From assembly GCA_903958915.1 (NCBI GenBank), contig CAJBVC010000033.1, positions 1 through 15,166 of the forward strand: a DNA stretch of 15,166 bases, in the 5' to 3' direction. The position numbers and the translations under genes are program-made. The notes below the pieces were generated by a model. It searched no databases, was not told where the DNA came from, and was given only the letters and a program-made list of their open reading frames with translations. Source of the stretch: an uncultured beta proteobacterium. Lineage in GTDB: Bacteria; Pseudomonadota; Gammaproteobacteria; Burkholderiales; Burkholderiaceae_C. Below are positions 10,437 through 15,166 of the stretch, piece by piece; within the stretch, counting starts at the first letter, position 1, and each line of letters opens with the position of its first letter.

Positions 10437-10701
10437 ACTCCCCACTCCCCCCCGCCCCTCGCCCCCGTCGGGCGAGGGGAGCTTTTAACAGCCGATTTGG
10501 TTTCCTCTATCAGTGAGGGCCTTACGGTCCAGCGATCAATTCGTTGCGTGACACGGCGCCTGACAAGACCACGCAAACACTTCCGGACACATGCTTCACA
10601 CAAGCATCGACCGTAAGGCCCTCGCTGCAACCGGGTGGTCAAATCGGCTGTTAAAGGCTCCCCTCGCCCGACGGGGGCGAGGGGTTGGGGGAGTGGGGAG
10701 T
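10437..10701. repeat. MITE-like element with ~62-bp terminal inverted repeats
   Basis: Left arm 10437-10499 and right arm 10640-10701 are inverted copies differing only at a short CCG/AA spot and one T/C. Each arm itself holds a perfect 10-bp hairpin, CCCCTCGCCC/GGGCGAGGGG, with a 5-nt loop. Inside the arms a second perfect 15-bp inverted pair is found, GAGGGCCTTACGGTC (10515-10529) with its complement at 10609-10623. Further small dyads are TGCGTG/CACGCA (10545-10550/10570-10575) and ATGCTT/AAGCAT (10591-10596/10602-10607). The 265-bp unit thus folds as nested hairpins. It has no credible gene and no clear target duplication at its ends. It could be a transposase-dependent miniature element; it may also act as a two-way terminator between the Lrp-like gene and putA. 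Confidence 0.85.
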
Positions 10702-10836: not shown

Positions 10837-13800
10837 ATGCCCGTCGCCCAACGCCTGCCCTTCCCCTATCGCCCCGAAGCCGAAGTCGTCGCCAACTGCC
10901 TGCAAAGTGTTCACCAGGCACTCGACTGGGCTGCCGCAGCCCGGATGGCCACCCCATGGGTGCAGTCGGTGCGCGACAACCCGCCGCCGTTCTGGGCGAT
11001 GGAAAGCCTGCTGCGCGAGTACCCCATTTCCAGCGCGGAAGGGTTGGCGCTAATGCGCCTGGCCGAGGCGCTGCTGCGGGTGCCCGATGCCGAAACGGCG
11101 ATTGCCCTCACCGCCGACCAACTCGGCCGCGCCGATTTCGAGAGCAGTGGCGACAAGGTCTTGTCGCGCCTGTCCAGCACGGCGATCGCCATGTCCAAAC
11201 ACTTCCTGCCCGACCCGCAGACTGGCGCCGGTCCCGCGAATGAACCGGGCCTCATGGCCAAGCTCGGCGCCAAAACGGTGGTGGCAGCAACCTTGCGCGC
11301 CGTGCAATTGCTGGGGCGCCAGTTTGTGCTGGGGCAGAACATGAAGGAAGCGCAGGCAAATGCCAATAGCGCCCGCAAAGCCCACCTGCCGGCGCGGGAA
11401 GGGCAATTTGCCGCCGGGCCGCCCCAAGGCAAATTAGCCCCCTTGGGGGGCAGCGACCCGCAAAGCGGCGGAGCGTGGGGGCTCCGATTTTCCTACGACA
11501 TGCTGGGCGAAGGTGCACGCACCGACGAGGACGCCTTACGTTACCTGAAGAGTTACACCGCCGCTATTGAATCCATAGCTGCTTACGCAAGCAGGACGGG
11601 CGCCATGGAGGATAACGATGGTATTTCCATCAAGCTGAGTGCGCTGCACCCACGATTTGAGGATGCGCAAAGCCAGCGCGTCATGGCCGAGCTGGTGCCC
11701 CGCGTCTGGAGCCTGTGCGAAAAGGCAGCGGCGGCCAACATCAACCTGACCATCGATGCCGAGGAAGTGGACCGCCAGGAGCTCACCCTTGAGGTGTTTG
11801 ACGCGCTGCTCTACAAGGTGTCGCTGCACTGCCCGCAGTGGAAGGGCTTTGGCATGGCGATGCAGACCTATCAGACGCGTTCGCTCGAACTCATAGCGCA
11901 CACCATCGCGCTGGCGCGGCGCTACCACCTGCGCCTGATGTGCCGCCTGGTGAAGGGTGCCTATTGGGACGCAGAAATCAAGCGCGCCCAGGAACTGGGT
12001 TTGCCCACCTACCCGGTGTTCACCCACAAGCACCATACCGATGTGTCCTACCTGGCGTGTGCACGTGCGCTGCTGGACGCGCCGGATGCCATTTACCCGC
12101 AGTTTGCCAGCCACAACGCGGCCACCATTGCCGCCATCATCCAGATGGCAGCGCGTACCGGTGCGCCTTTTGAGCTGCAGCGCCTGCACGGCATGGGCGA
12201 GGGGCTGTACCGCGAGGTGCTGAAGAACCCCACGGTAGCCTGCCGCGTCTATGCCCCAGTGGGTGCGCACCGCGACCTGCTGGCCTACCTGGTGCGCCGG
12301 CTGCTGGAGAACGGCGCCAACTCGTCGTTTGTGCACCAGATGGCGGATGCCTCCGTGGACATGCAGGACCTGCTGATCTCGCCGTTGCGCCTGGAGCCCA
12401 ATTCTTCACTGCCGCTTCCGCCCGACCTGTTCGGCACCCACGCCGGTGCTCGCAAGAACAGCGTTGGCGCCGACCTGACGGTGCCGGCCATGCGCGAGCC
12501 GCTGCTGGCAGCCCTGTCCACGCCGGTACCGGTGGTTGCAGAGTTTGATGTCAAAAACATCGCCAGCGCTTACCAGACAAGCGCAAGCAGCTATCAAAAG
12601 TGGAGCATCACCGACGTCGCTGAGCGCTCGACCATTATGCGCAAAGCCGCTGACGCGATGATGGACCAACTGGCTCCGTTGTGTGCTTTGCTAGTCAAGG
12701 AAGCGTTCAAGACCTGGGGCGACGCGGTGGCCGAGGTGCGTGAGGCGGTGGACTTTCTGCGCTACTACGCGGATGAAGCCGAGCGCATCATGCAGCCCAT
12801 TGCCTGCCCCACCATCCACGGCGCGCAAGTGGGGTTCACCTATGGCGTGACGGGTGAGACCAACACGCTGCGCCTCACGGCACGCGGTGTCTGGGTCTGT
12901 ATCAGCCCGTGGAATTTCCCGCTCGCAATTTTTGCGGGCCAGGTGGCCGCAGCACTGGCCACCGGCAACACGGTGCTGGCCAAACCCGCTGAGCAGACGC
13001 CGGGCGTGGCCAAGGCGGCCGTGGACATCCTGCATGCGGCAGGTGTCCCGTTGGACGTGCTGCAACTGCTGCATGGCCCCGGTGAAACCGTGGGTGCCGC
13101 GCTGGTGGCGCAACCAGGGGTGGCAGGTGTGGTGTTTACCGGCTCAACCCAGGTGGCCAAAATCATCCAGCGTGCGCTGGCCATGAAGGACGGCCCGATT
13201 GTTCCGCTGATCGCTGAGACTGGCGGCATCAACGCCATGCTGGTCGACTCCAGCGCACTGCCCGAGCAGGTCATCGACGCGGTGGTGATGAGCGCGTTCC
13301 GCTCGGCCGGGCAGCGCTGCTCGGCACTGCGCCTCTTGTGTGTGCACGAGGGCATCGCCGATGGCGTCATTGAAATGTTGCAAGGTGCGGCCAAGGAACT
13401 CAAGGCGGGTGATCCGTCCGACGTGGCCACGGATGTGGGGCCCGTCATCGACGTCGAAGCCCATGACAACATCCAGCGCCACATCGCGCGCCTGAAGTCT
13501 GAAGCAAAAGTGCTGGTAGCGCCCGCAGAGCAAGCGCAGGCAGCTACTCATTCAATAGCAAATCTGATCGCTCCGCACGCCTTTGAGGTGGCACGCATTG
13601 CTGACGTAAAAGCCGAGATCTTCGGCCCGGTGCTGCAGGTGGTGCGCTGGACGGGCGAGCCCGGCGACGTCATCGCGCAGATCAACGCGTTGGGCTATGG
13701 CCTCACGCTGGGCATCCAGACCCGCATTGACTCCCGAGCCCAGGCGCTGGCCCATGCGGCGCATGTCGGCAACGTTTACATCAACCGCAACATGATTGGC

Positions 13801-13962
13801 GCGGTGGTGGGTGTGCAGCCGTTTGGTGGTGAAGGTTTGAGCGGTACTGGCCCCAAAGCGGGTGGGCCGCACTACCTGTACCGTTTCTGCGCCGAGCAGA
13901 CGGTGACGGTGAATACGGCGGCGGCGGGTGGGAATGCGGCGCTGCTGGCGGCGCAGCATTAA
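10837..13962 (+). CDS. putA: Bifunctional proline dehydrogenase / L-glutamate gamma-semialdehyde dehydrogenase PutA
   Basis: PutA oxidises proline to pyrroline-5-carboxylate (FAD) and then to glutamate (NAD+), with substrate channelling, at the inner membrane. At 1041 aa it is of the short class, lacking the N-terminal ribbon-helix-helix DNA-binding domain and the C-terminal extension of long PutAs (about 1300 aa). PRODH barrel: ISIKLSALHPRF (261-272), RLVKGAYWDAEIKRAQ (370-385), FASHNAATIAA (423-433), LQRLHGMGEG (447-456), RVYAPVGAHRDLLAYLVRRL (470-489). ALDH part: SPWNFPLAIFAG (690-701), FTGSTQVAK (767-775), E794 in AETGG, catalytic C828 in GQRCSA, EIFGPV (927-932). Start ATG 10837 has GGAG at 10827-10830. 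Residues about 183-215 are an insertion encoded by a palindromic repeat, and three further repeat-like segments lie in frame. The divergent Lrp-like gene is the likely regulator. Confidence 0.95.
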   Translation: MPVAQRLPFPYRPEAEVVANCLQSVHQALDWAAAARMATPWVQSVRDNPPPFWAMESLLREYPISSAEGLALMRLAEALLRVPDAETAIALTADQLGRADFESSGDKVLSRLSSTAIAMSKHFLPDPQTGAGPANEPGLMAKLGAKTVVAATLRAVQLLGRQFVLGQNMKEAQANANSARKAHLPAREGQFAAGPPQGKLAPLGGSDPQSGGAWGLRFSYDMLGEGARTDEDALRYLKSYTAAIESIAAYASRTGAMEDNDGISIKLSALHPRFEDAQSQRVMAELVPRVWSLCEKAAAANINLTIDAEEVDRQELTLEVFDALLYKVSLHCPQWKGFGMAMQTYQTRSLELIAHTIALARRYHLRLMCRLVKGAYWDAEIKRAQELGLPTYPVFTHKHHTDVSYLACARALLDAPDAIYPQFASHNAATIAAIIQMAARTGAPFELQRLHGMGEGLYREVLKNPTVACRVYAPVGAHRDLLAYLVRRLLENGANSSFVHQMADASVDMQDLLISPLRLEPNSSLPLPPDLFGTHAGARKNSVGADLTVPAMREPLLAALSTPVPVVAEFDVKNIASAYQTSASSYQKWSITDVAERSTIMRKAADAMMDQLAPLCALLVKEAFKTWGDAVAEVREAVDFLRYYADEAERIMQPIACPTIHGAQVGFTYGVTGETNTLRLTARGVWVCISPWNFPLAIFAGQVAAALATGNTVLAKPAEQTPGVAKAAVDILHAAGVPLDVLQLLHGPGETVGAALVAQPGVAGVVFTGSTQVAKIIQRALAMKDGPIVPLIAETGGINAMLVDSSALPEQVIDAVVMSAFRSAGQRCSALRLLCVHEGIADGVIEMLQGAAKELKAGDPSDVATDVGPVIDVEAHDNIQRHIARLKSEAKVLVAPAEQAQAATHSIANLIAPHAFEVARIADVKAEIFGPVLQVVRWTGEPGDVIAQINALGYGLTLGIQTRIDSRAQALAHAAHVGNVYINRNMIGAVVGVQPFGGEGLSGTGPKAGGPHYLYRFCAEQTVTVNTAAAGGNAALLAAQH
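11383..11481 (+). repeat. In-frame palindromic repeat insertion within putA
   Basis: Codons 183-215 of putA encode a Gly/Pro/Ala-rich stretch (HLPAREGQFAAGPPQGKLAP and onward to GGAWG) between ARKA and LRFSYDMLGE, which are contiguous or nearly so in ordinary PutA. The DNA contains CCCCAAGG (11422-11429) pairing with CCTTGGGG (11441-11448) across an 11-nt loop, then CCGC/GCGG (11458-11461/11465-11468). The wording of this DNA resembles a GC-rich intergenic repeat I recall from Comamonadaceae; here it has become coding. It lies before the PRODH barrel, where a loop could be tolerated. The hairpins are seen; the mobile-repeat origin is inferred. Confidence 0.6.
11563..11588 (-). repeat. Repeat-like segment in putA, inverted relative to 13534-13559
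   Basis: The reverse complement of these 26 bp matches 13534-13559 at 21 of 26 positions, sharing the GCAGCTA core and the end ATTCAATAGC. It lies in frame in PRODH codons just before the SIKLSALHPR motif, within a helix-forming stretch (AAIESIAAYASR). Short repeat material kept in coding frame is one explanation; chance plus similar amino-acid usage is less likely for both strands. Confidence 0.5.
12564..12600 (+). repeat. Repeat-like segment in the PRODH-ALDH linker of putA
   Basis: CAGCGCTTACCAGACAAGCG followed by CAAGCAGCTATCAAAAG holds the core GCGCAAGCAGCTAT (12581-12594), shared with the segments at 1587-1600 (inverted) and 13534-13547. It encodes IASAYQTSASSYQK (about 576-588) in the linker between the two catalytic domains. 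Flanking AGCGCT and AGCGC half-sites make it partly palindromic. Confidence 0.5.
13534..13559 (+). repeat. Repeat-like segment in the ALDH part of putA
   Basis: GCGCAGGCAGCTACTCATTC plus AATAGC is the direct-strand partner of the inverted segment at 11563-11588. It encodes part of a poorly conserved surface stretch (AQAATHSIAN, about 900-909) before IAPHAFEVARI. The related copy at 14768-14793 in the truncated putA shows that it was in place before the two putA copies separated. Confidence 0.5.
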
Positions 13963-14022: not shown

Positions 14023-14244
14023 ATGCAAGCTTCTCTGAGCGCTGAACTCGCACAATTGCCAGCCATGGACCGCCTGCAATTGGCGCAGGACCTGATTGCC
14101 AGCGTTACCAGCGAGCAAGGTGGTTTTCTCGCCAATGAAGCACATCGGCACGCGGCTCAGGAACGCATGGGGCACTATTTGGCGCATCCTGACGAGCCGA
14201 CCGTTTCGTTGACCCAGATTCGCGCTTCCCTCGGACTTCGTTGA
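14023..14244 (+). CDS. Type II antitoxin, addiction module component family
   Basis: A 73-aa protein of the small helical antitoxin family typical of RelE/ParE partners (addiction module component, PF09720-like). The pattern LSAELAQLPAMDRLQLAQDL (5-24) followed by a hinge, then HRHAAQERMGHYLAHPDEPT (41-60) and SLTQIRASLG (62-71) fits: an N-terminal helical segment and an extended C-terminal toxin-wrapping tail. ATG 14023 is chosen over the in-frame ATG-like start at 13993 because AGGGGGC lies just upstream. The gene is coupled to the toxin by TGATG. In such pairs the antitoxin, or the complex, often represses its own promoter; the 60-bp gap after putA contains TATATT (13973-13978) and an imperfect ACCC/GGGT dyad but no clear -35. 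Confidence 0.82.
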   Translation: MQASLSAELAQLPAMDRLQLAQDLIASVTSEQGGFLANEAHRHAAQERMGHYLAHPDEPTVSLTQIRASLGLR

Positions 14245-14564
14245 TGCCCTTTGTTGTGCGCTACAGCGCACTTGCGGCACATGAGTTGAGAGAAGCCTTT
14301 GCTTGGTACAGCGATCAGGCGGGAGAGGCAGTTGCCTTGCGTTTCCTGGAAGAAGTGGAGCGGGGAGAGTCCCATCTACGCAGCAATCCCCATCTCTACC
14401 AGCGCATCAACGCCGAAGTGCGCCATCTGGTCTTGAGGCGCTTCCCCTATGCGCTGATCTACGCAATTTCAGACGATTTCGTAACAGTTCTTGGTTGCCT
14501 TCACAGCAGTCGCGAGCCATTATCGTTGGCGGATTGGCTGGCGCGAGACCTGCCAAAGCAATAG
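14244..14564 (+). CDS. Type II RelE/ParE family toxin
   Basis: A 106-aa toxin of the RelE/ParE fold: N-terminal strand VVRYSALAAHELREAFAWYS (4-23), a helical hairpin (25-46), and the C-terminal strands RHLVLRRFPYALIYAISDDF (60-79) and VTVLGCLHSSREP (80-92). The RRFPYALIY and final H-S-R-E-P pattern is typical of ParE-like members; whether it attacks gyrase or mRNA cannot be decided from sequence. The start ATG overlaps the antitoxin TGA (TGATG), so it is translationally coupled. Antitoxin-first order is normal. It lies between putA and a truncated putA copy, 30 bp before the latter. Confidence 0.85.
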   Translation: MPFVVRYSALAAHELREAFAWYSDQAGEAVALRFLEEVERGESHLRSNPHLYQRINAEVRHLVLRRFPYALIYAISDDFVTVLGCLHSSREPLSLADWLARDLPKQ

Positions 14565-14594: not shown

Positions 14595-15166
14595 TGAGCG
14601 CCTTGCGCCCGGCTGGCCAACGCTGTTCGGCATTGCGCCTGCTGTGCGTGCACGAGGGAATTGCCGATGTCGGCCCGGTCATCGACACCAAAGCCTTTGA
14701 CAGCATCCAGCGCCATATCCAGCGCTTCAAATCAGAGACTAAAGAGCTGGTGGTGCTCGCAGAATGTGCGCAGGCAGCTAGCAATTCAGTAGCAAATCAG
14801 ATCGCTCCGCACGCCTTTGAGGTGGCACGCATTGCCGATGTGAAAGCCGAGATCTTCGGCCCGGTGCTGCAAGTGGTGCGCTGGACCGGCGAGCCCGGCG
14901 ATGTGATCGCGCAGACCAACGCGTTGGGCTATGGCCTCACGCTGGGCATCCAGACCCGCATCGACTCGCGAGTCCAGGCGCTGGCCCATGCGGCGCATGT
15001 GGGCAACGTCTACATCAACCGCAACATGATCGGCGCGGTGGTGGGGGTGCAGCCGTTTGGTGGTGAGGGATTGAGCGGTACCGGCCCCAGAGCGGGCGGG
15101 CCGCACTACCTGTACCGCTTCTGTGCCGAGCAGACGGTGACGGTGAATACCGCAGCAGCGGGTGGC
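14595..15166 (+). pseudogene. putA: Truncated second copy of the putA 3' region (continues past window)
   Basis: From about 14597 the sequence aligns with putA 13291 onward, beginning SALRPAGQRCSALRLLCVHE, so the catalytic Cys of the aldehyde dehydrogenase is kept but the PRODH domain and over 800 residues are absent. A 72-bp, in-frame deletion removes copy-1 positions 13364-13435, between two GATG tetramers. The remaining frame is open to the window edge. No start codon with ribosome binding site is seen (only TTG 14594-14596). By hand count, 13 of 73 positions differ in the first stretch, but 27 of 372 from 13561/14795 to the end. It may be a relic of a tandem or second putA whose 5' part was replaced when the toxin-antitoxin pair arrived. 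Confidence 0.9.
14768..14793 (+). repeat. Repeat-like segment in truncated putA copy
   Basis: GCGCAGGCAGCTAGCAATTC plus AGTAGC is the counterpart of the putA segment at 13534-13559 and keeps the GCGCAGGCAGCTA core exactly while the flanking bases differ strongly. Confidence 0.5.

Follow-up and report, generated by a model that had tools for sequence, protein, structure and literature searches.

An ~84-bp dispersed hairpin repeat occurs in frame within putA and other conserved genes of Burkholderiales

The 15,166-nucleotide stretch that we analysed, hereafter the window, belongs to the genome of an uncultured beta proteobacterium and carries a putA gene coding in one open frame for a bifunctional proline dehydrogenase/P5C dehydrogenase. 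A Pfam scan identified the PF14850 (Pro_dh-DNA_bdg), PF01619 (Pro_dh) and PF00171 (Aldedh) domains, and the best solved relatives of the protein are 4q72 and 3haz. The initial annotation had described a GC-rich, Gly/Pro/Ala-rich segment in frame between the ARKA and LRFSYDMLGE motifs of PutA, which is indeed present. It had been delimited as positions 11383 to 11481 and sized at about 33 codons. The insert is in frame as described, but its net size is 31 codons, with 38 residues between the anchors as opposed to 7 in the sister protein, and the repeat proper corresponds to positions 11405-11482, since ~20 nt at the 5′ end are absent from other copies. These limits were obtained by BLAST with positions 11370-11490, of which query positions 36-113 are common to other copies. 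Except for one chance-level 14-base match (E 5.7), the 5′ part of the net insert had no match in other copies, and the sister, whose linker is shorter, has nothing equivalent to it. The match to our covariance model, R1, is 85 bp long around a core of 78 bp, and the repeat copy corresponds in frame to PutA residues 189-217. The coordinates of these features are collected in Table 1.

Table 1. Features of the putA gene and of the repeat copy that it harbours (positions in the window)
Feature	Position	Strand	Remarks
putA, bifunctional proline dehydrogenase/P5C dehydrogenase	10837..13962	+	Host gene, 1041 aa, one open frame
5′ part of net insert	11383..11401	+	Not common to other copies (BLAST and sister comparison)
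Repeat copy in putA	11402..11486	+	Covariance model R1 match, 89.7 bits; core 11405-11482
Stem I, 5′ arm AATTTGCC	11405..11412	+	Pairs with 11428-11435
Constant apical hairpin GGGCCGCCCC	11416..11425	+	Inside the loop of stem I; invariant in 26 copies of alignment A1
Stem I, 3′ arm GGCAAATT	11428..11435	+	Pairs with 11405-11412
Hairpin II, GCCCCC/GGGGGC	11437..11451	+	Conserved
Hairpin III, CCGC-AAA-GCGG	11458..11468	+	Differs in sequence and length among copies; folded copy by copy
Conserved 3′ end GTGGGGGC	11475..11482	+	Followed by host sequence CTCCGA

The window harbours additional repeated sequences. An inverted repeat with 52-nt arms, 94% complementary and 140 nt apart, is found upstream of putA (10448-10691). 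Downstream, a 107-aa ORF (14241-14564) precedes a partial second putA 3′ half (14595-15166), with 89% identity to residues 865-1032; part of the gene thus appears to have been duplicated. A second short repeat-like family (GCTATTGAAT..TAGCTGC.TGCGC) is present in coding sequence at positions 1574-1617, 11563-11603, 13519-13559 and 14751-14794. The 11563-11603 copy has 11 other matches of 27-45 nt in the genome at E<=0.01 and causes no gap in the PutA alignment, and the length of the 13519-13559 segment varies among relatives.

The segment at 11405-11482 is one copy of a dispersed repeat of ~84 bp. BLAST of positions 11370-11490 against the own genome retrieved 41 places at E<=1.3e-4, own copy counted (40 others). 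A 19-mer with at most two mismatches gave 43 matches, own copy counted, and its reversed control none. R1, which was built from 26 copies including that of putA itself, has 57 matches at E<=0.1 in this genome. In a set of 61 genomes, at least 30 are positive, namely the own genome, at least 28 of 36 same-genus relatives and one of 24 genomes from other families; no R1 match was found in eight same-genus genomes in this strict-filter search. In a broader Burkholderiales sample, at least 50 of 399 genomes, own included, are positive and represent 13 family codes, although three of these 50 have E >1e-4 and the model is only roughly calibrated. The searches of sets of more than 40 genomes used stricter filters and a ceiling on the candidates taken from each genome (73 in the 61-genome set, 11 in the broader sample), and their counts are lower bounds. 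The many copies in the own and related genomes bear out the expectation of the initial annotation.

Copies of 75-95 nt (80 of 91 in two genomes) have a mean GC content of 73%. In several genomes, the repeat forms tandem arrays in which adjacent copies start 81-87 bp apart. Copy number follows genome size (Spearman 0.70 over 37 same-genus genomes including the own one, many of them drafts, with at least 73 copies in three). The window has no match to Rfam families at the gathering threshold, and the repeat has no match in a phage collection. It is found in three plasmid records. On a Rhodoferax antarcticus plasmid (NZ_CP019241.1, 24218-24290; L285 1501-1573), a copy is located within an annotated Fic family protein.

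We determined the structure of the repeat by covariation. Folding of single sequences was abandoned as evidence of structure because shuffled sequences fold equally well; the 11383-11490 segment alone folds no better than its shuffles (z 0.01). Of 34 copies found by the core pattern, one without 5′ flank and seven shortened or irregular ones, the latter removed before the covariation count, were left out of alignment A1, leaving 26. These copies share a common plan, with a stem of variable sequence round a constant loop containing GGGCCGCCCC, followed by GCCCCC-GGGGGC, a variable third hairpin and a 3′ end near AGCGTGGGGGC. Stem I shows compensatory changes at all eight of its pairs. In contrast, the counted pairs of hairpin II are almost invariant, which makes covariation uninformative either way. 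Over the whole structure, 95.1% of cells are paired as compared with a shuffled mean of 79.1%, and the covariation score is 0.403 against 0.124 for shuffles, none of 500 of which scored as high. Shifting the partners by one to three columns abolishes the signal. The count of pairs changed on both sides is eight, a value reached by 17 of 500 shuffles.

We added 36 copies, 35 of them distinct, taken from loci in 27 genomes that belong to other genera and families. They are 97.0% paired, with a score of 0.580, in an alignment made by fitting to the model and therefore biased towards the structure by construction; among the 35 distinct copies, stem I has compensatory changes at seven of eight pairs. 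The supported structure is thus a hairpin with a variable stem and a constant loop, with strong covariation. The initial annotation had proposed two stems. The CCGC/GCGG one is present in this copy (11458-11461 and 11465-11468). The 8-bp CCCCAAGG/CCTTGGGG stem can also be drawn here (11422-11429 and 11441-11448), but we rejected it as a feature of the family, as it shows no covariation and has one pair that is disrupted in 17 of the 26 copies.

We then compared PutA proteins. Among the matches listed from named genomes, 13 of 80 PutA relatives have a model match in the open frame of the gene (L061, L070, L075, L076, L083, L085, L089, L102, L117, L121, L124, L125 and L131). Those of L083 are weak (E 0.007 and 0.022 only), and the copies of L131 sit just upstream of its aligned part. 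PutA matches in L201, L203, L204 and L205 run across one TGA. The mapped inserts lie at window residues 26-29, 105-106, 183-217, 437-444 and 662-668, on either strand, so that PutA has insertions at five or more places and in both orientations. Of the 82 PutA rows compared, 76 have a 183-217 linker of 7-9 residues and the other six have one of 35-38, and no row is intermediate. The low-complexity Gly/Pro/Ala composition of the segment, and its shuffle-like folding when taken alone, would suit native linker variation or codon expansion that involves no mobile repeat. However, the dozens of near copies in the genome refute this explanation and the linker leaps in length without intermediates, so that its probability is negligible. 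The 437-444 loop harbours the repeat in six of the 82 rows, and L091 and L102 also have long inserts there, without model match at that place.

In a PutA tree built without 13 partial or distant rows, and in which three of the G rows come from genomes that it contains twice (zero-length end branches), the sister of the window protein is that of genome G013 (SH-aLRT 100; 88% identity), which is empty at 183-217 and filled at 437-444. The insert is thus absent at this site from most orthologues and from the sister, the latter being an outcome that the initial annotation had named as support, and neither of the outcomes that it had named as contrary, conservation in most orthologues or absence of other copies from related genomes, appeared. 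For each of the two loops, the tree requires six changes for six filled rows; the tree does not give their direction, which we infer to be gain at the putA linker. Most simply, the insertion would have taken place in the lineage of the window once that of G013 had diverged from it. L061 and L125 have the same insert junctions, and neighbouring rows (L066, G006 and G014) lack the insert, which makes loss or precise excision indistinguishable from repeated gain; one gain followed by later losses is possible for this pair.

PutA is one of many host proteins. We scanned 30 own-genome ORFs besides PutA with Pfam, and in 20 of them the insert is either flanked on each side or spanned by domains. With PutA included, this amounts to 21 in-gene copies in 20 genes. 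The hosts are PurL, UvrA (two copies), FdhD, an Fmt-like formyltransferase, a HutH-like aromatic amino acid lyase, LeuS, an alpha/beta hydrolase, a DUF3025 protein, a DEAD helicase, an AMP-binding enzyme, an FAD-linked oxidase, a metallo-beta-lactamase-fold protein, PEP carboxylase, PurK, RecJ, IlvD/Edd, the NAD-dependent DNA ligase LigA, a class I tRNA synthetase, the nitrate reductase alpha subunit and PutA. Names in '-like' are identities that we presume on top of the Pfam family. Five scanned ORFs have no Pfam match (L188, L182, L185 and two of L006), and five have a match on one side only (L019, L013, L011, L184 and L022). Several of the repeat-carrying enzymes are usually essential.

The one-contig genome G007 has eight copies in seven genes with Pfam support, out of 10 ORFs. 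They encode RelA/SpoT (two copies), an FGGY kinase, a RadA-like ATPase, UvrA, a MurG-like transferase, a glutathione S-transferase and an APH-family protein; L277 has a match on one side and L279 has none. For FdhD, Fmt, PEP carboxylase, LigA and the first RelA copy, one of the two sides was inferred from a second matched stretch. UvrA has two copies of the repeat in the own genome (contig C845, 10536 and 11581) and one in G007 (3838096, L267). The genome of the window is a draft of 982 contigs with 6.06% contamination, which could raise the suspicion of an assembly or binning artefact. Nevertheless, G007 shows the same in-gene pattern, and inserts in the same PutA linker are present in records not marked as MAGs, i.e. 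Rhodoferax lacus IMCC26218 (L061) and, with a weak match, Hydrogenophaga sp. NFH-34 (L083). An artefact is therefore hardly conceivable.

We applied a codon-usage classifier, trained on 14 ORFs that are themselves repeat-carrying, to the surroundings of 91 copies, 53 from the own genome, of which the four weakest of the 57 matches were left unclassified, and 38 from G007. For 28 of the 91 copies, one open coding frame extends on both sides (19/53 in the own genome, or 19/49 away from contig ends, and 9/38 in G007). Another 35 copies have same-strand coding sequences on both sides. In 31 of these, the upstream stop codon is found at -53 to +3 nt of the element start, and many of the between-gene copies start only a few nucleotides from it. 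In the remaining four, the upstream frame stops past the element (92-98), overlapping the start codon of the next frame in three cases according to our heuristic analysis. The other 28 copies, with coding sequence on one side, opposite strands, non-coding surroundings or a contig edge, fall outside the broken-frame test, and at least three of them are in-gene by Pfam (Fmt, the second UvrA copy and DUF3025). Unit length modulo 3 shows no visible pattern. Element frames are stop-free in 71% of cases as opposed to 67% in mononucleotide shuffles; we rejected an adaptation of the element to reading frames, as base composition accounts for the open frames.

These data bear on whether the insert is present in the protein. 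A structured, covarying element amid conserved enzymes might be cut from the mRNA in the manner of an intron or be bypassed by the ribosome, yielding a PutA protein of normal length. However, such removal needs no open frame, yet 28 copies lie in one that is open on both sides. Similarly, the heuristic detected no clear out-of-frame gene interruption among the 35 same-strand copies, although not all element frames are stop-free, and L083 has a decayed repeat (21.9 bits) with one codon fewer than that of L075 and an intact frame. We thus regard removal or bypass as very unlikely. Translation of the insert as part of PutA is most likely, because it keeps the frame and has no stop codon.

We also looked at the fate of the encoded segment. 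In the AlphaFold model of PutA (mean pLDDT 71.4, pTM 0.62), the insert is located between the helix 169-182 and the strand 216-222, and residues 185-213 have pLDDT values <50 and no secondary structure. It is thus predicted to be a disordered loop that connects the first strand of the proline dehydrogenase domain to the last helix preceding this domain. All five insert places of PutA lie between helices and strands in this model, 662-668 being in a low-confidence stretch. The alignment of the window PutA with 3haz and 4q72 splits at the insert, covering residues up to 173 and then from 208. A search for solved structures related to the repeat-encoded peptides found none (one match, E 1.6). In three inserts, pN/pS is 0.40, 0.51 and 0.92 as compared with 0.21 and 0.15 for the whole gene pairs, in two gene pairs with small counts. 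The inserts keep the frame and appear to evolve faster than the gene, which fits toleration rather than a selected function. The term 'domesticated' used in the initial annotation is therefore too strong, as the evidence points to toleration under relaxed constraint.

The insert might nonetheless have been recruited, its loop or mRNA hairpin serving in partner binding, regulation or translational pausing. The same two PutA loops have been hit repeatedly, with six filled rows each out of 82, and pN/pS is below 1 in the three inserts. Conversely, constraint on them is weaker than on the rest of the gene, insertion in both orientations and several frames yields unrelated peptides, sister lineages lack the insert and the loop is predicted to be disordered. 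Recruitment thus appears unlikely.

The explanation that we consider highly probable is that a mobile structured repeat has inserted in putA as elsewhere, that the surviving in-gene copies are in frame, and that this one is translated as a disordered loop of ~31 extra residues that PutA tolerates. The small dispersed repeat would insert often, and selection would eliminate the insertions that break genes, such that the surviving copies would be those next to stop codons or in frame within loops. In putA, the ribosome would read through the insert and produce a protein with a longer loop, which PutA presumably tolerates.

Unrelated stem sequences with compensatory changes round the constant loop are found both within one genome and across the order. 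The covariation in dispersed copies suggests that spread may require a folded nucleic acid, RNA or single-stranded DNA. Y1 transposases were rejected as candidate mobilisers, as the Y1_Tnp profile does not track copy number. Thus, G030 and G011, with at least 63 and at least 11 copies, have no Y1_Tnp match, and the eight copy-free same-genus genomes, in a set with many drafts, have one each. Reverse transcriptases (RVT_1) do not track copy number either and were similarly rejected. We tentatively propose, as a possibility of somewhat less than even probability, that the repeat is a mobile element dependent on its folded form, that its mobiliser is neither a Y1 transposase nor a universal host reverse transcriptase, and that it has steadily supplied central enzymes of Burkholderiales with linkers of ~28 residues, PutA and UvrA being hit recurrently.

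The repeat family probably corresponds to the Beta-proteobacterial repeat element (BRE) described in Bordetella and other betaproteobacteria (Hot et al. 2011, PMC3110155), a likeness based on size, GC content, taxa and arrays, not on the letters of the sequence. According to the parts of that article covered here, full-length BREs are 75-91 bp long and GC-rich (63.7-78.9%, mean 69.0% in Bordetella), form tandem arrays whose units abut or are a few nucleotides apart, and are mostly intergenic, with some wholly inside coding sequences; they occur in Comamonadaceae (Polaromonas, Rhodoferax, Delftia) as well as Bordetella, and their function was left open. The unit size and GC content of our repeat agree with these values, and its tandem arrays and its spread in Comamonadaceae and other families are alike. 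The same parts of the article propose no structure, do not analyse reading frames and do not list the genes in which BREs reside. A motif scan of loci L141-L170 and L219-L247 found no neighbouring lexA, the gene sought as a possible link to BREs. The Rhodoferax ferrireducens genome paper (PMC2755013) mentions, in the parts covered, CRISPR repeats only, and, among the papers listed, our literature search found none on in-frame insertion of this repeat family beyond the remark in PMC3110155.

The initial annotation had also likened the insert to Rickettsia palindromic elements. These are described, in the parts of the two articles covered, as ~150 bp long and inserted in frame in unrelated genes, each encoding a conserved peptide (PMC10969869, PMC3733652). 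The resemblance holds for behaviour, as palindromic repeats enter unrelated conserved genes in frame in both cases. However, the present repeat is of ~84 bp, GC-rich, found in Burkholderiales and read on both strands and in several frames. It seems to work like those elements by analogy, and we do not class it as one.

REPs with GTAG or CGTC tags have been reported inside ORFs of several bacteria (2013, PMC3733652), and in the part of that study covered, their hosts include UvrA with double inserts, DNA ligase, RNA helicases and tRNA synthetases. UvrA and other hosts are thus shared with our repeat. Intergenic REPs were likewise described to lie close to gene 3′ ends and to start near upstream stop codons, as our between-gene copies do. 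In contrast to those REPs, the unit is longer here, with three hairpins, and its copy number does not follow Y1 transposases; each tag is found within 12 nt of an end in one of 26 copies. MITEs, according to the part covered of PMC10969869, are small and dispersed and can fuse to ORFs, as do the copies described here. Inspection by eye of alignment A1 and the putA junctions, with few exact empty/filled pairs, revealed no terminal inverted repeats or target duplication. The initial annotation had pointed out that the insert is in a betaproteobacterium and in a central catabolic enzyme. Insertion of this kind is not confined to putA and had been seen before in bacteria other than Rickettsia (PMC3733652, PMC3110155); given the known in-gene REP and Rickettsia repeats, the present case is an extensive fresh one of a known phenomenon.

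Comamonadaceae thus show extensively a process best known from Rickettsia, the capture of palindromic repeats in frame. In PutA, several loops provide a natural series in which sites are empty, filled or decaying, and with which the cost and fate of insertions can be measured. Protein annotation and modelling in Burkholderiales should expect inserts of about 30 residues, and the covarying hairpin provides a handle on the mobiliser. If the mobile-element reading is true, PutA and UvrA would be recurrent acceptors of the repeat.
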